Assembly: GCA_003225005.1 (NCBI GenBank)
Contig: QIAN01000077.1
Location: 1 to 54,452, forward strand
Direction: 5' to 3'
DNA length: 54,452 bases
DNA from: Acidobacteriota bacterium
GTDB lineage: Bacteria > Acidobacteriota > Terriglobia > Terriglobales > Acidobacteriaceae
Shown one piece after another: positions 22,314-29,508 of the stretch. Positions within the stretch are counted from its first letter, which is position 1. Each line of letters opens with the position of its first letter. The position numbers and the translations under genes were made by a program. A model generated the notes under the pieces. It was not told the DNA's origin. It did not search any database and saw nothing but the letters and a program-made list of their open reading frames with translations.

Positions 22314-23285
22314 TCACGAAAACGTCGGCAGCTTCACCAGATCATCCTTCGGTACCGACTCCAGCGGCTCCCCTGCTTTGCGCCACGCGGTCAGGCCGCC
22401 GACAATCACAAACGTGTTGAATCCTTTTTCCCGCAGCAGGTGCGCCACCCGGGCGCTGGTCGCTTCACGTGCTCAAGTGCAGTAGAGATAAATATCCTTT
22501 TCCCTGGAAAGATTTTTGATCTCCTCCTCCAGGTTGTTGGGCTCGATGCGAATAGAGCCCTTGATCCGTTCTGTGCCGGAATCGTAGTACCCGTGGCTGC
22601 GAACATCGATGATCAGAAGATTGTTCTTTCCCTCGGAAGCCAGCCGCTGCGCCAGTTCCTGTACCTGCACGCGCGGCACGATGCGATACACGCTGTGCCT
22701 GCGATATTGAACGACACGGTAGATGGCGTAACTTATCAGCGCCGCTACGATCACCGCTTCCATGGCCCGTCCCGCGGCGTGAAAGCCGCGCAGGATCACC
22801 GCCAGAAAATCGCGAGCAATGTAGCCTAGCGCCAAGTAAGAGAGGGCGTAAATGGCGGAACCCAGGAAGTCCAGTTGCAGAAATTGCGTGAAACGCATCT
22901 TCATGCTTCCGGCCAGTGGCGCAGCCATCGTATTCACCCCGGGAATGAACTTGGCAATCACGAGCGTAGTTTTGCCACGCTTGTAGAAAGACTCTGCCGA
23001 GCGCAATATACAAGTTTCCGGATTTACCGAAACGCGGCACAAGAACCCGAGCAGCGCCCATCCCATGTTGCGGCCAAGCACGAACTGCAGGGAATCTCCC
23101 AGCAGCAACGCAGCCAGTGCCACAACAAGCACTGACGGCGCCTGCAGAGCGTGTGAGGCTACCGCCGCCCCAGCTGCGACCAGTGCAATCGCCGCGGGGA
23201 AAGGAAGTCCTATCGCCTCCGCGAACAAAAGTCCGAAAGTTAGGGTGTAACCATGACGAGCCATCAGCCCAGTCAGTTCATTCAT
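22314..23285 (-). CDS. DedA/VTT membrane protein fused to rhodanese, with in-frame TGA (candidate selenocysteine)
   Basis: 323 residues if TGA 22473-22475 is read through, 270 if not. Residues ~1-195 are a DedA (VTT) membrane domain: FAEAIGLPFPAA, GDSLQFVLGRNMGW, FIPGVNTMAAPLAGSM. Residues ~205-323 are a rhodanese domain: NLLIIDVRSHGYYDSG (acidic substrate-loop strand), IYLYC with the presumed catalytic Cys269, then Thr270, TGA at 271, and 52 uninterrupted codons: AREATSARVAHLLREKGF, then FVIVGGLTAWRKAGEPLE. From memory, related DedA-rhodanese fusions carry CxC here, so the TGA would replace the second Cys. A 5-bp GC stem with loop CGGGU starts 16 bases after the TGA. The formate dehydrogenase gene nearby uses TGA for Sec, so readthrough is plausible; a nonsense mutation is the alternative. 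ATG 23285 is preferred over 23375. Confidence 0.72.
22442..22456 (-). promoter_or_regulatory. Candidate bacterial SECIS hairpin
   Basis: On the minus strand GCGCC (22456-22452) pairs with GGCGC (22446-22442) around loop CGGGU. The loop begins 22 bases after the in-frame TGA at 22475-22473 and has G in its second position. These values fit the published general model for bacterial SECIS elements (short stem, loop within roughly 16-37 bases of the UGA, G near the loop start). The stem is short and GC-rich coding sequence often forms such hairpins, so this is supportive only. Confidence 0.45.
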
Positions 23286-23431: not shown

Positions 23432-23770
23432 TTACTTGCTCATGGTTTCGCTCTTCTCACCCTTGAGCATCTTGACGTTCATTACGTGGATCGCATTCTT
23501 ATCCGCGTACACGTGGGCGCTGAGTTGTACATGATGACCATCGTGAGCTTTGAGTTCTTCGGGATTCATAACGTCCCAGCTCTTCTGGTCCTTGTCGCTC
23601 ACGAATGTAACTTTGTCGCCTTCCACTTTGACTGTGCCCTTCAGCGTCTTCAGGGGAGCCGCAGCTGCAGTCTTGTCTGAGGTAGACTGCGACATGGTGT
23701 CCTGCTGTGCAAAGGCAGTGATGCTCATAACAAACGTCAAAGCCAACAAACAAACCATTACCTTTTTCAT
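23432..23770 (-). CDS. Small exported protein, OB-fold-like (DUF5818-type)
   Basis: 112 residues with a clear signal peptide (MKKVMVCLLALTFVMSITAFAQ). The mature part begins with a Ser/Thr/Ala-rich stretch and continues with a small beta domain: LKGTVKVEGDKVTFVSDKD, SWDVMNPEELKAHDGHHVQL, HVMNVKML. This resembles short secreted proteins common in Acidobacteria in which a TVxxxG strand and HxGxxVxL follow each other. AAGGAG lies eight bases before ATG 23770. Function unknown. Confidence 0.82.
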   Translation of the reverse strand: MKKVMVCLLALTFVMSITAFAQQDTMSQSTSDKTAAAAPLKTLKGTVKVEGDKVTFVSDKDQKSWDVMNPEELKAHDGHHVQLSAHVYADKNAIHVMNVKMLKGEKSETMSK

Positions 23771-24063
23771 CGAAAGTCTCCTTTGAGGTTCTTGGAATCC
23801 AGGCCAGATTTCTGTATGGCTGCTTTCATTACGCACTTGGACCCCAAAACGGATCGTTTTCAGTTTTCGGGTACGCTATTCAATGTTTGTGGCCGGCAAG
23901 TGCTGAAGAGTTGCCACGAATCAATTGGAATAAAAGGTTGAGAGCTAGATCTCTTAAACTGTTACTTTCATGGCCGCTGTCTATCTTTATATTTTTTAAT
24001 CAATAGCGATGTTATCAGTCATCGGTGTCAATATGCGCTAGAATGCAGTCTCCGGGGGCAGCC

Positions 24064-24374: not shown

Positions 24375-25154
24375 CTACTTGCTTCTGAGCTTAGACTCAG
24401 AAGGGTTCTGTGTCACCGCCCGTTCTGTTTCCTCCCGCGCCTTCTCGTAAGATTCGCGGGGATCACGTCCGGTCACTTCCCGATACCAAGCTGGATGAAA
24501 GGTCCAGGCCCAAGGCTCGCTGACGGCTCCGCGAGTCATCGCCTGGAAAGTGCCAGGCTCTCCGATCGTGCTCAGATAGATGTGGACGAAAATCCCGCCC
24601 AGCATGACGATTGCCGACACGTCGTGCAGGACATAGCTGATCGCCACGAGGGTGCTGCCGAAGGTGCGAGCGCCGGCCCACAAGATGATGCCTGTAATGA
24701 GGAACACGACACAGCCGATAACGATTTCCCAGAATTGCAGCTTCTGCCCGGCATTGAAAAATCCGGTGTCGGGCGGCTCAAGTTTTTCTTTGCCGCTGAC
24801 GATCCCGCGCAGGTTGCGCATCCAGTTTGTGTCGGCCGGCGTCCACATCATCGGTTTCAGCCAGTTCAGCATTTGCAGGCCAAAGAAGAATACACAGAAG
24901 ATGCCAAACCACGGGTGCAAAGCTCGGGCCAGCGGGCCTCCACCAAAGATTGGGGTGAACCAGCGGAACAGCCAGGGCAGGTAAATTCCGAAGCCGGAGA
25001 AGAGTGCAAGGAAAAAGAAGAGAGCGACCATCCAATGCAGGAAGCGGGTGTAGACCGGATGCCGCCGCAGTTCGCCGACATACACGACGGTGCGGCCGAG
25101 GGACTCGAACCTGCGGCGTGCTCTTTCGTCAAAGCGTTCAATCGCCGTTGCCAT
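24375..25154 (-). CDS. fdnI: Formate dehydrogenase N, cytochrome b gamma subunit
   Basis: 259 residues, a four-helix di-haem cytochrome b556. It takes electrons from the FeS beta subunit across the membrane to reduce quinone. Histidines in or near helices fit haem ligation: LRRHPVYTRFLHWMVALFFF, ARALHPWFGIFCVFFFG, ISYVLHDVSAIVMLGGIFVHIYL (segments shortened by domain reading). The tail FHPAWYREVTGRDP is also characteristic. Last gene of the operon; its start overlaps the 3' end of the beta gene by 17 bases and has a strong ribosome site (AAGGAGGGG). An inverted repeat (CTTCTGAG...CTCAGAAG, 24382-24403) covers its last codons. Confidence 0.93.
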   Translation of the reverse strand: MATAIERFDERARRRFESLGRTVVYVGELRRHPVYTRFLHWMVALFFFLALFSGFGIYLPWLFRWFTPIFGGGPLARALHPWFGIFCVFFFGLQMLNWLKPMMWTPADTNWMRNLRGIVSGKEKLEPPDTGFFNAGQKLQFWEIVIGCVVFLITGIILWAGARTFGSTLVAISYVLHDVSAIVMLGGIFVHIYLSTIGEPGTFQAMTRGAVSEPWAWTFHPAWYREVTGRDPRESYEKAREETERAVTQNPSESKLRSK

Positions 25155-26043
25155 TCGTCCCCTCCTTGTTTGGCGGCTCGGGCTGCGGCCGACGCGGGCC
25201 CACCGTCACGTAGTGCAACAGCACTCCCAGCCCTCCAAACAGCGCGAACGCGCCCAGCACCGGCTTGAACAGCCACTTCCACACGGTGTAGCTCCACGGA
25301 ATAGTTGGATTCTTCGGCAGCCCGCCGTAGCGTTCCGGATCGGTCGCGTCATGCAGCACGTAGATCACGTGCGTGCCGCCGATCGATTCGGGATCGTAGA
25401 CGCCAGCTTTTTCCATACCAAAGTTGTCGCGCAATTGTTTGGCTCGCTCCTCCGCGATGAACTTCATGTCGTCCTTGGTGCCAAACTTCAGGCAGCCCGT
25501 TGGGCACGCCTTAATGCACGCCGGTTCCAAGCCTTCGCCAACGCGATCGGAACAGAGCGTGCACTTGTAGACTTTCTTCGTCCCGGGGTTGAGTTTCGGG
25601 ATATTAAATGGACAGCCGGAGACGCAGTACTCGCAACCGATGCAGTTCTCCTGATTGAAGTCGACGATGCCGTTCGTGTATTGCACGATGGCGCCATCGG
25701 CCGGGCAAGCCGCAAGGCAGCCGGGATCAGCGCAGTGCATGCATTGGTCTTTGCGCATTAACCACTGGACCGTTCCATCTTCGCGGGGATGTTCGTTGAA
25801 CTTGATCAGGTTCCAGAAGTTCCAGCGCGTCTCCGGCATCGTCTGGTAGGTATTGTCGAAGGTGGTCGCGCCGAAGGGCATATCGTTCCACTCCACGCAC
25901 GCCACCTCACAGGCTTTGCACCCGATACAAGTCGTGGTGTCCACTAACTTGCAGACTTGAACATCGCGCTGCACACCGGTGCCGGGGATGGGCCCGGGGT
26001 GGGCTGACATCCTCTGGATCTGTAGTGTCTTGCGGTCGCTCAT
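25138..26043 (-). CDS. fdnH: Formate dehydrogenase N, iron-sulfur beta subunit
   Basis: 301 residues with four Cys clusters for 4Fe-4S centres: CIGCKACEVAC, CMHCADPGCLAACP, CIGCEYCVSGCPF and CTLCSDRVGEGLEPACIKAC. These pass electrons from the molybdo/tungsto-pterin subunit to the membrane subunit. One C-terminal helix (LGAFALFGGLGVLLHYVTVG) anchors it to the membrane with the periplasm-facing orientation of FDH-N. It starts nine bases after the alpha subunit stop and overlaps the gamma start, so the three genes form one operon. Confidence 0.95.
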   Translation of the reverse strand: MSDRKTLQIQRMSAHPGPIPGTGVQRDVQVCKLVDTTTCIGCKACEVACVEWNDMPFGATTFDNTYQTMPETRWNFWNLIKFNEHPREDGTVQWLMRKDQCMHCADPGCLAACPADGAIVQYTNGIVDFNQENCIGCEYCVSGCPFNIPKLNPGTKKVYKCTLCSDRVGEGLEPACIKACPTGCLKFGTKDDMKFIAEERAKQLRDNFGMEKAGVYDPESIGGTHVIYVLHDATDPERYGGLPKNPTIPWSYTVWKWLFKPVLGAFALFGGLGVLLHYVTVGPRRPQPEPPNKEGTNGNGD

Positions 26044-26052
26044 CGCGATCTT

Positions 26053-29000
26053 CTATGCTTTCTCAATCTTCACCAAGAAGCCCTTGAATTCCGGAGTGAA
26101 TGCGTTCGGATCGATCACCGTTGGAGTCAGTTGATTGGCCAGAGTCTTCGCAGTCTTTCCTTCATCCTCCGCGATGCCGCGGAATCCCCAGTGAATCGGC
26201 AAACCAATCTGAAACATTTCCTTACCGTCGATTTTCATCGGACGGATGCGCCGGGTCACCATAGCCTTCGCGATGTAATGGCTGCGCGCGCTGGTCACCT
26301 TGACTCTCTCGCCCCCGTGAACGCCCATCCGATCGGCCAGTTCCGCCGGCACCTCGACAAACGGTTCAGGAACGAGCTGGACGTTCATCGGATTATTTTT
26401 CGTCCAGTAATGGTAGTGTTCGGTGAGCCTGTAGGTCGTGCAGATGACATTGAAGCCCTGATCCGCTGTGCCGTACTTGTCGAACTCGGTCTTATACTTT
26501 TTCACCACCGGATTGTTCGACTGATTGGGATGAAGTGGATTCGCAATCGGGCTTTCGATCGGTTCGTAGTGTTCGGGGAATGGCCCATCCGCCATCCCGC
26601 CGAGGGGCACAAACAATCGGCCTATGCCTTCCGGATTCATGATGAATGGACCCATGTGATCCTTGGGGGCGGAGTCGGGTTTGAAATCGGGAATATCGTT
26701 TCCCACCCACAACTGCTTGCCCTCATCCCACCATACTTGCCGTCGCGATGAATCCCACGGCTTGCCATTGAGGTCACACGACGCTCGGTTGTAAAGCACG
26801 CGGCGGTTGGCGGGCCACGACCACGCCCAATTCGGATAAATCCCGAGTCCCGATGGATCTTCCGTTCCGCGACGCTGAATCATCGCGCCGGCTTCCGTCC
26901 AGGAACCAGAGTAGATCCAGTTGCCGCAGGCAGTCGTGCCATCGTCCTTGAGCCAGGCAAAACCCGGAACCTGCTGTCCCGACTTGATCGTCTGATTCGT
27001 TTTGGGATCGGTGATATCGGCAAGCGCCTTGCCACTGACCTCCTTCGCGACCTCCGCCAGTGAGGGGGCGTACGGGTTGGTGTACGCGAACGTCGCATTC
27101 AGAACCGGATCGGCGAACTTGCCGCCCTCTTTCTGATAGAGCTCGCGCACTTTCAGGTAGATCATTGCCAGGATGTCCTGATCGAGACGTGCCTCGCCCG
27201 GAGGCGGCAGCGCAATCTGCTTCCACTGCAGCCAGCGCGCCGAGTTGGTGAACGAGCCATCTTTTTCGGCGAATCCCGCGCCCGGCAGCCGGTACACGGT
27301 GGTGTTGATCTTTTTCTGATCGTCGGCGGAGATGCCCGGCGCACGCCAGAACTCGCTGGTTTCGTCGGGATAAATCTCGCAGACCACGAGCCAGTCCGCC
27401 TTCTTCAGCGCCTCAATGTTCTTAGTGGAATCGGGACCGATCATTACGCCGTTCATGCCAAAGGCAAACAGACCTTTTATTTTGCCTTCATACATGTCGT
27501 TCCAGATGTTTACCCACGAATAGTTGCGATCGATCTTGGGCAGGTAATGGAATGCCCAGTCGTTGTCCTTTGTAGCAGCCGGGCCGTACAGGGCCTTCAA
27601 CAGAGACACCGTAAACTTCGGCGTGTTCGACCAATAATTGAATGAGTTCCAGGGATCGGGCTTGGAGGATATTGGCGTGATCCGCTTGAGGTAAGTAGCG
27701 AGATCTACGTCGTTCGGGTTGGGCATCTTCAAATATCCGGGCAGAGTGTCAAACACGCCTGCCATGTCGGTTGCGCCCTGGATATTTGAGTGCCCACGCA
27801 GCGCATTTACGCCGCCTCCTGCGCGTCCTACGTTTCCCATCAGCATCTGCAACATCGCAGCGGTACGGATAATCTGCGTACCAAAGCTATGCTGGGTCCA
27901 GCCCACCGCATAGATGATGGTCGACACCTTCTTCATGTCCCCATCTTTGCGGATCGAGGTGTAAAGGTCGGCTGCTTTGAGGAACTGATCTTGCGGAATT
28001 CCAGTAATGCGCTCGACCATCTCCGGGGTGTAACGCTCATATTGCTTCTTGAGAAGTTGGAAGACGCACCGCGGATGTTGCAGGGAAAGATCGAAGGCGA
28101 CCTTCGACGGCAACAAGGGCACAGGCGAGGCGCCAGCTTTTGCTCCCGCTGGACTCGCACCCTGATGGCCCTGGCCCGTGTCGCTACCCTGCACGTGCGT
28201 TGCTCGCGCATTCTGTCCCGAAGGCGTCGGCAAAACCGCCTTTCCCGACAGGTCCCCACCTTCTTCGTAGTTCCACGAAGATTTGTCATACATCTTCGTC
28301 TCAGGATCAAAGCCTGAGTACAATCCGTCATCAGGAAGCTTGAATCCCTCCTTAATGATGAACCCAGCATTGGTGTAATTGACAAGGTAGTCGCGGGCGA
28401 TGCGGTTGTTGTCGAGCGCGTAGTTGATCACCCCGCCGAGAAAGGCGATGTCGGCGCCGGCACGAATCTGAAGGTACAGGTCTGCGGTCGCGGCCGTCCG
28501 CGTGAGGCGAGGATCGACTACGATCGTCTTCGCATTGCGCTGAATCTTGGCTTCGATGGCCCACTTGAAGCCGCAAGGATGGTTCTCGGCTGGATTCCCG
28601 CCCATGATCAACATCATGTCAGTGTTCTTGATGTCGATCCAGCCATTGGTCATCGCCCCGCGTCCGAATGTTGGCCCCAAACTGGAGACCGTGGGGCCGT
28701 GTCAAACCCGAGCCTGGTTTTCCAGGTAGCAGACCCCCAGGCTGCGCATGCTCTTGACGACCAAATAATTGAATTCGTTCGTGTCGGTGCAACCGCCCGT
28801 CCAGGCAATGCCTTCGCAGCGGTTCACGGTTCTTCCCTGGCTGTCCTTTTCAAGGAACGTATCGTCGCGTGTCTTCTTGACCCTCTGCGCGATCTCGGCA
28901 TTAGCCTGATCCCAGGAAATATCTTCCCAGTCGGTGGCTCCCGGACGACGCACCTGCGGCTTCAGCAAACGCCGATCATTCAGGATGTCTTGTTCAAGCG

Positions 29001-29283
29001 ACGACCCCTTGGGACACAACGTTCCGCGATTGATAGGGTGGTCGGGATCGCCCTCCACGTGCACGACCTGCGGGATCGCATTCTTTGCCTTGTCGCCCAG
29101 CGTATAGATAATCACACCGCAACTCACCGAACAGTATGGACAGGTGCTGCGCGTCTCGGTTGCTCGCGAGATCTTTAAGCCTTGAGTCTGGGCGTAAACA
29201 GGGGTGAGATCAAAACCTAGAGCGGAAAAACCTACTCCTCCGACGAGCGTGCCCTTGAGGAAGGTTCTGCGGGAGAGTTCCAT
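26053..29283 (-). CDS. fdnG: Formate dehydrogenase N, catalytic alpha subunit, selenocysteine-containing
   Basis: 1076 residues with Sec at TGA 28702-28704. Formate is oxidised to CO2 at a bis-pterin Mo/W centre on the periplasmic side. Residues 4-11 (SRRTFLKG) are a Tat signal; CPYCSVSC (48-55) and CPKG hold a 4Fe-4S cluster. The Sec context is NQARV-Sec-HGPTV at residue 194, equal to Sec196 of E. coli FdnG. Downstream families motifs include GPTFGRGAMTNGWIDI and MGGNPAENHP. ATG 29283 has GGAGG six bases upstream; the ATG two codons earlier overlaps that site. A low-complexity insertion of about 50 residues interrupts the protein (28095-28246). Without the Sec codon this region would appear as two unrelated ORFs. 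fdhE is divergent upstream. Confidence 0.96.
28095..28246 (-). other. Low-complexity in-frame insertion within fdnG
   Basis: Between MYDKSSWNYEEGGDL and LQHPRCVFQLLKK the protein has about 50 extra residues rich in Gly, Ala, Gln and Pro (VQGSDTGQGHQGASPAGAKA). The E. coli protein passes directly from the equivalent of the first segment to KHPRCV with a short link. The insertion keeps the frame and looks like a translated repeat or linker rather than a domain. Confidence 0.6.
28673..28698 (-). promoter_or_regulatory. SECIS hairpin of formate dehydrogenase alpha gene
   Basis: GGCCCC (28698-28693) pairs with GGGGCC (28678-28673), starting three bases after the TGA. The inner part ACGG-TCT-CCAGT can form a smaller helix whose top contains GGTCT, as in the well-studied E. 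coli formate dehydrogenase element. It would bind SelB and direct Sec insertion. Confidence 0.75.
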
Positions 29284-29508
29284 GCACATCCTCCGACTAC
29301 TTTGCTTTCAGGCCGAAGGTATCAACTCAGTCAGCGATGAAGCTGTGTACTTTCCGGGTTGAGGTTCAATTCGTGGTCGTGATTGCCCCGGCTCACCTAA
29401 CCATACTTTTCCGCGAACTATATTCCCATTGCTGGCGATGGTCAATACTGGGTGAGATGTATGCCCTGGCGGTTGCGCAGCGTCCCGGCTGGCACTGATA
29501 ATCGGGTG

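Follow-up and report, generated by a model that had tools for sequence, protein, structure and literature searches.

A DedA-fused CxU rhodanese of Acidobacteriota as a probable membrane-embedded selenoprotein

A gene on the minus strand of the window (the whole 54,452-nucleotide stretch of acidobacterial DNA analysed here) very probably encodes a recoded, membrane-bound CxU rhodanese selenoprotein with a DedA domain, and comparison with its relatives makes selenocysteine (Sec) insertion at codon 271 close to certain. The frame runs from an ATG at 23285-23283 to a terminal TGA at 22316-22314 (Table 1). Its single interruption is a TGA that stands directly 3′ of the ACT codon of Thr270 (22478-22476) and is followed by 52 sense codons before the true stop. 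The read-through product exceeds the Pfam gathering thresholds for both the VTT_dom family (PF09335, 46.8 bits against 33.9) and the Rhodanese family (PF00581, 47.5 bits against 22.2). A preliminary description of this DNA had claimed that a single TGA two codons past a Cys splits an otherwise intact frame, and that the 52 codons after it complete a rhodanese domain; the coordinates of the former proved exact, and the latter agrees with a Pfam domain that extends to residue 303. No inverted repeats of at least 12 nucleotides were found in the gene region and a promoter scan found none; terminator-like sites numbered 3, with 1.2 expected.

Table 1. Positions in the window of the DedA-rhodanese gene, its main features and a neighbouring selenoprotein candidate.
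Feature	Position	Strand	Remark
DedA(VTT)-rhodanese gene	22314..23285	minus	323 codons + stop, TGA predicted to be read as Sec at codon 271
In-frame TGA, putative Sec271 of CxU motif (YLYC-T-U-AREATSARVA)	22473..22475	minus	TGA at homologous site in 117/178 distinct homologues
Cys269 (TGC), first CxU residue	22479..22481	minus	Cys in 117/117 Sec and 60/60 Cys forms
VTT (DedA/SNARE-associated) membrane domain, residues 29-155	22821..23201	minus	Pfam PF09335
Rhodanese domain, residues 209-303	22377..22661	minus	Pfam PF00581
Cys83, charged loop of DedA part	23037..23039	minus	kept in 177/177 Sec and Cys forms
Cys92, same charged DedA loop as Cys83	23010..23012	minus	kept in 176/177 Sec and Cys forms
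Bacterial SECIS-type hairpin GCGCC-CGGGU-GGCGC	22442..22456	minus	codon invariance and pairing specific to Sec forms
Context: formate dehydrogenase catalytic subunit	26053..29289	minus	in-frame TGA 28702-28704, U197 in RVUHGP

The TGA recurs widely among homologues. Read at the DNA level in 178 distinct homologues from the same phylum, the site holds TGA in 117, Cys in 60 and Ser in one, so that Cys is found in 60 of the 61 non-TGA homologues, as the preliminary description had stated of relatives. Matches occur in 135 genomes of a 150-genome sample of the same family, and 74 of these, across 46 genera, carry the TGA form; site DNA was read for 62 of the 74 (42 genera) and for 44 of the 61 genomes whose copies are all non-TGA, every one of the 44 holding a Cys copy. 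One of these, G040, also holds a Ser copy, the divergent paralogue L163 (G040:C13), in which CSS replaces CTU/CTC and the C-terminus is longer. The genome G051, with one TGA copy and one Cys copy, is counted among the TGA forms; G081 (listed with one TGA, which lies elsewhere) and G002 (listed with one TAA) are classed as non-TGA, both having TGC at the site. Locus L079, with no residue at the site, and locus L080, which aligned in another frame although it has TGA at the site, were left out of later counts, and no residue was obtained at the site in L216.

A second deep clade, only 30-38% identical to the search query, has TGA at the same site. In a phylum-wide sample of 297 genomes, 56 match at 1e-45, and TGA forms occur in families f1, f18, f22, f25, f28, f32, f34, f39, f56, f60, f66 and f78 of that set. 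In protein databases the same pattern appears as early ends: a search with the read-through product scored 8000 sequences, 5229 of them at E 0.001 or better, and of the best 120 of these 5229 relatives 69 end exactly at ...YCT, 49 have Cys, one has Arg and one has Ser. For clade 2, among the best 120 matches listed, 27 end at the Sec site and 93 have Cys, and for one clade-2 member the nearest 24 database proteins have lengths of 268-269 residues. Near relatives that carry names are metagenome-assembled genomes of Candidatus Sulfotelmatobacter, Acidobacteriaceae and Terriglobia, some of them named for peat, bog or palsa. The preliminary description had expected a real recoding site to show TGA in several independent genomes, which is borne out in 74 of 150 family genomes, in 46 genera, and in further families. 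It had set against recoding a decayed downstream part, which is not what we find (median dN/dS downstream of the hairpin 0.12, 114 pairs), and sense codons other than Cys in close relatives. These relatives have mostly Cys, with exceptions in the Arg of P0002, a close metagenomic relative (82% identical), and the Ser of the metagenomic relative P0033.

The hairpin 3′ of the TGA lies exactly where the preliminary description had placed a 5-bp stem with loop CGGGU at SECIS distance (22456-22442), with its loop at 22447-22451 and 21 nt between TGA and loop. Far from lacking conservation, which would have spoken against the proposal, it has a complete five-pair stem in 106 of the 115 distinct Sec segments (four pairs form in seven, three in two), against 3 of 60 Cys segments, and G occupies loop position 2 in 115/115 Sec segments against 12/60. 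Written as GCGCC-CGKGU-GGCGC, the hairpin conforms by comparison to the rule for bacterial SECIS elements, a small apical loop that includes a G (PMC1088965, in excerpt), here just downstream of the UGA. At the codon level, the third positions that lie 20, 23, 29 and 32 nt 3′ of the T of TGA show 99-100% conservation in each of the two Sec clades (74 and 22 distinct sequences), against 45-66% in 47 Cys forms. Of 121 conserved positions in the 72 sequences of Sec clade 1, the five most codon-invariant are V280, A278, A281, S277 and T270 (invariance 0.99-1.00, median 0.59), the first four of which lie within the hairpin; among four- and sixfold codons of the remaining 45 Sec forms the highest values are those of A278 (1.00) and A281 (0.91) (median 0.53), and in Cys forms A281, the sole scorable hairpin position, has an invariance of 0.48. 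From these sequences, conservation of the hairpin in Sec forms is far above chance. It seems that the SECIS also limits the choice of residues, since most Cys forms (41/60) have Lys at loop residue 279, where 115/117 Sec forms have Arg. Among clade-1 Sec forms 99% use ACT for T270 beside the TGA, despite the four Thr codons available, possibly a 5′ context effect on UGA recoding.

Both-sided changes do occur. C-G is replaced by U-A in L081 and L200 and one C-G by G-C in L202, and an outer pair, unpaired in 41/74, shows C-G/G-C swaps. The covariation score of 43 diverse sequences lies above all 500 shuffles, but the signal is limited to 4 both-sided cells at one pair, a number of such pairs reached in 152/500 shuffles; with partners slid by +1 there are more both-sided cells (8) and a lower score (0.060 against 0.077). 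Folding of the window's own sequence (46 nt) gave z = +0.64 with a different structure as the minimum-energy fold, and of two shorter pieces one has the hairpin as its minimum-energy fold (z +0.21) and the other has z -0.68. The hairpin is not unusually stable alone, and therefore a single sequence would not have proved a SECIS; single-sequence folding was dropped as proof, the window RNA alone not preferring this hairpin.

A SECIS model built on 46 clade-1 sequences and scored on other loci gave at least 40 bits for 26 of 41 Sec loci and for none of 48 non-Sec loci; its separation is imperfect, with 15 of the 41 Sec loci at 9.4-33.2 bits, under the best non-Sec locus at 36.8. In the organism's own 7.9-Mb genome the gene scored 66.1 bits and the next candidate 18.4 (150 candidates scored of 7353). 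The bacterial SECIS search that the preliminary description had proposed as a check thus recovers the gene with our own clade-1 model and not with Rfam, which at gathering score found only the formate dehydrogenase SECIS_3 in the window. The 36.8-bit score belongs to L125 (G052:C118), a Cys form in a 70% complete genome with no detected Sec machinery, whose hairpin is possibly a leftover SECIS after a Sec-to-Cys change.

The host appears well equipped to insert Sec. Its genome (99.73% complete) has matches to selB (359 bits), tRNA-Sec (66.9 bits), selA (532.7 bits joined) and selD (370 bits), so all four of selA, selB, selC and selD are present. The selD match, L227 (G000:C118:7897-8817), contains an in-frame TGA, and the selenophosphate synthetase of this genome may on that account be a selenoprotein too; a motif search returned nothing for L227. 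In the window, Rfam SECIS_3 matches the formate dehydrogenase gene at gathering level (28649-28707, 70.6 bits). Its catalytic subunit, with an in-frame TGA at the expected Sec place, is probably a selenoprotein as well, and this TGA with its SECIS_3 indicates that the host inserts Sec, as had been argued in the preliminary description. The FeS subunit (25138-26043) and the cytochrome b subunit (24375-25154) follow the catalytic gene.

Across the family sample, the TGA form and the Sec machinery go together. With the tRNA-Sec line set at 62 bits, because weaker matches turn up in every genome and control, selB is found in 65 of the 74 TGA-form genomes, tRNA-Sec in 64 and at least one of the two in 72; where all copies are non-TGA, the corresponding figure is 10 of 61 genomes (Fisher p 1.8e-24, a value that overstates independence because the genomes are related). 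G032, for example, combines a TGA form (L102) with selB and tRNA-Sec. The two TGA-form genomes with neither match, G024 and G057, are 75% and 85% complete, and of 15 family genomes with no DedA-rhodanese match 11 have Sec machinery. Outside the family selB is present in 19 of 20 TGA-form genomes, G200 (99% complete, TGA form) giving no selB match at 1e-70, and G189 and G212 have selB and a copy with no TGA.

These observations bear on two readings in which no Sec is inserted. That the TGA is a genuine stop, through a nonsense mutation or an error of sequencing or assembly, with the protein ending at residue 270, would fit the short forms listed in databases, such as P0124, a 268-aa ‘VTT domain-containing protein’ (NCBI). 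We give this practically no credence: 46 genera of one family, and members of other families, share this codon at this position, the 52 codons beyond it are under purifying selection, the stop would fall within the rhodanese active loop, and the hairpin is a trait of the TGA forms. Recurrence, dN/dS and hairpin together rule out a pseudogene or sequencing error. An open frame past a TGA does not by itself name the amino acid, and the UGA might be read through as, or reassigned to, an ordinary residue such as Trp or Cys. This too is very improbable, and reassignment was ruled out because UGA also ends the same gene and Cys, with rare exceptions, alone replaces TGA. The co-occurrence of Sec machinery with TGA forms and a hairpin that obeys the rule of a small G-containing apical loop (PMC1088965, in excerpt) likewise argue for Sec. 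Comparison across homologues shows recoding as Sec with a SECIS footprint, and equivalence of Sec and Cys at the site.

Sec and Cys forms are not scattered at random over the family. On a tree of 178 proteins 7 changes account for the Sec/Cys/Ser labels, where shuffled labels average 51, and starred branches make at least 4 changes for Sec unavoidable; on a tree of 93 proteins rooted on three proteobacterial Cys forms 6 changes are needed, at least 3 of them forced by starred branches. On the rooted tree the acidobacterial Cys forms share their groups with Sec forms. Our reading of these trees is that Sec was probably the ancestral state of the family in Acidobacteriota and was followed by several apparent Sec-to-Cys reversions, whose number is rough because the branch supports are moderate.

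The DedA part has a conserved Cys pair and lacks the flippase arginines. COG0586 DedAs are putative undecaprenyl-phosphate (UndP) flippases, for which a pair of Arg in the second re-entrant helix is described as essential, and rhodanese fusions exist within COG0586 (PMC10127716, in excerpt). Of seven other VTT matches in the organism's own genome three could be aligned (L218, L219 and L223), and the Arg positions were mapped by alignment with these. All three paralogues have Arg at both places and are without C83/C92; in the DedA-rhodaneses, Sec and Cys forms alike, residue 112 is Lys in 176/177 and residue 118 is never Arg. By hydropathy and charge count, the loop that holds C83 and C92 has 8 K+R and 2 D+E and lies on the positive side together with the C-terminal domain, and the pair and the rhodanese domain are probably cytoplasmic. 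Either Cys269, which the preliminary description presumed to be catalytic, or residue 271 may correspond to the catalytic Cys of ordinary rhodaneses: solved rhodanese sequences align both ways, one domain of 6mxv_A with residue 271 and the other with Cys269. The conserved Cys set that emerges from comparison, with the lost flippase arginines, suggests a membrane thiol/selenol relay; exchange between C83/C92 and C269/Sec271 is proposed because the Cys set is conserved, the Arg pair is missing and the two pairs likely share the cytoplasmic side.

How such a protein might be made and work can be outlined. SelB on the hairpin just 3′ of UGA-271 would deliver Sec-tRNA-Sec, the ribosome would then complete the rhodanese domain with its active loop Cys269-Thr-Sec271, and the 323-residue product would be kept at the membrane by its N-terminal DedA/VTT domain. 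Sec271 would attack a sulfur substrate, a Cys269-Sec271 selenenyl-sulfide would form next, and C83/C92 or a cytosolic reductant would restore Cys269/Sec271. We infer the topology, the catalytic residue, the reaction and its substrate, and lean towards membrane-tethered thiol/selenol exchange or sulfane-sulfur transfer as the reaction. More tentatively, and with real doubt, one may picture a membrane chalcogen relay, in which C83/C92 swap electrons or sulfane sulfur/selenium with Cys269/Sec271 in a DedA branch that gave up moving lipids and took on redox or sulfur transfer of a Dsb- or DsbD-like kind at the membrane, ancestrally a selenoprotein in Acidobacteriota and maybe among the most widespread in soil.

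Two other views of function accept the recoding. The protein could be an ordinary DedA UndP flippase whose Sec rhodanese plays a regulatory or accessory part, a view compatible with Sec at residue 271; the VTT domain scores over its Pfam cut-off, and both the presumed activity of COG0586 DedAs and the occurrence of rhodanese fusions among them (PMC10127716, in excerpt) point that way. It is nevertheless unlikely given the absence of the essential Arg pair and the contrast with the three aligned paralogues of the same genome, which keep both Arg and are without C83/C92. A role mainly in selenium handling or delivery, for instance of perselenide to SelD, in place of a sulfur or redox function, is a good deal less probable. 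A CxU rhodanese could in principle carry selane selenium, and the Sec forms co-occur with Sec machinery, but of the 61 genomes whose copies are all non-TGA, 51 have no detected Sec machinery and keep the gene, with the same Cys layout where it was read, and three proteobacterial examples share that layout. Since genomes with no detected Sec machinery keep the non-TGA form, the function seems not to require selenium metabolism.

Sec-containing rhodaneses are themselves known. A May 2026 review counts 119 prokaryotic selenoprotein families/subfamilies, and its Table 1 gives rhodanese forms 1-5, of which Rhodanese-like form 3 has the motif CxU (NF041203 rhodanese_LYCAU, TKB26178.1); the table names no DedA or VTT protein (PMC13188914). 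The CxU motif of form 3 is present in DedA-rhodanese as YLYC-T-U, and NF041203, the ‘rhodanese-related (seleno)protein’ model, is the best NCBIfam match to its rhodanese part (85.2 bits, residues 199-309). The profile of 126 positions is however too short to include the membrane domain, and the DedA-rhodaneses fall under its curated cut-off of 115 (P0001 85.2, P0003 77.7, two clade-2 members 78.6 and 88.4 bits). The organism's own genome also encodes a standalone rhodanese, L232 (G000:C548:177-494, minus), with an in-frame TGA in YCTU, a similar hairpin GCGCC-AGTTT-GGCGC and 107.7 bits against NF041203; it is without a DedA domain, and its match to our SECIS model is weak (17.8 bits). As L232 sits just under the cut-off, the curated NF041203 family may be wider than its model.

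Among fusions, the selenoprotein TsoB (NF045694), described as rhodanese/DsbD fusion-like, likewise joins a rhodanese to another domain, by name of a membrane redox type, but differs from DedA-rhodanese in having two Sec (UxxxxU) and a DsbD-like partner (PMC13188914, Table 1), and NF045694 gave no match to P0001 or P0003 at E 0.01. Cys-form DedA-rhodanese fusions, annotated ‘DedA family protein/thiosulfate sulfurtransferase GlpE’, have the same two domains, and PA1209 is named as such a fusion (PMC12893004, in excerpt). The three proteobacterial DedA-rhodaneses, 30-34% identical, share C83, C92 and the CxC layout and are without the flippase Arg pair, but have Cys instead of Sec at the site. 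Our literature search for a Sec-containing DedA-rhodanese, with most subscription papers and bioRxiv preprints outside its scope, found no report, and the one Acidobacteriota genome tested in an earlier study gave 3 known and 0 new selenoproteins (PMC12013277, in excerpt). The preliminary description had taken a DedA-fused Sec rhodanese to be new. This stands for the fusion within that search, but CxU rhodanese selenoproteins were already known through NF041203, so the novelty lies in the DedA-fused membrane form and its spread and not in the Sec rhodanese itself. Our verdict, drawn from sequence comparison, is that the proteins make up a widespread family or subfamily of membrane-embedded CxU rhodaneses that is new among selenoproteins.

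Acidobacteriota are common in soil. If the assignment holds, a membrane-integrated family is added to the prokaryotic selenoproteome, and truncated database entries can be corrected, 69/120 and 27/120 of the nearest proteins listed for the two clades ending at the Sec codon. The family shows Sec persisting over much of a phylum and apparently reverting to Cys several times, which is useful for asking when Sec is lost. The conserved set of four chalcogen residues gives a concrete prediction. The family also bears on the connection between rhodanese domains and undecaprenyl phosphate in DedA fusions, called unclear in PMC10127716 (in excerpt).

The gene neighbourhood was compared in 40 sequences, comprising 39 clade-1 loci and the window, and the neighbouring genes in these 40 gave no hint of function. 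Upstream families shared by 35-37 of the 40, which from their sequences we take to be YajQ-, TatD- and others, are all absent from the window. A downstream family present in 33 of the 40, window included, is taken to be the window's CYTH gene (Pfam run in the window only). Upstream of the gene in the window is a small open frame (23432-23836, minus strand) with no Pfam match; a family at this place in 14 of the 40 sequences, window included, is probably the same gene, and one of its members, L044_19, has a signal-peptide-like start.
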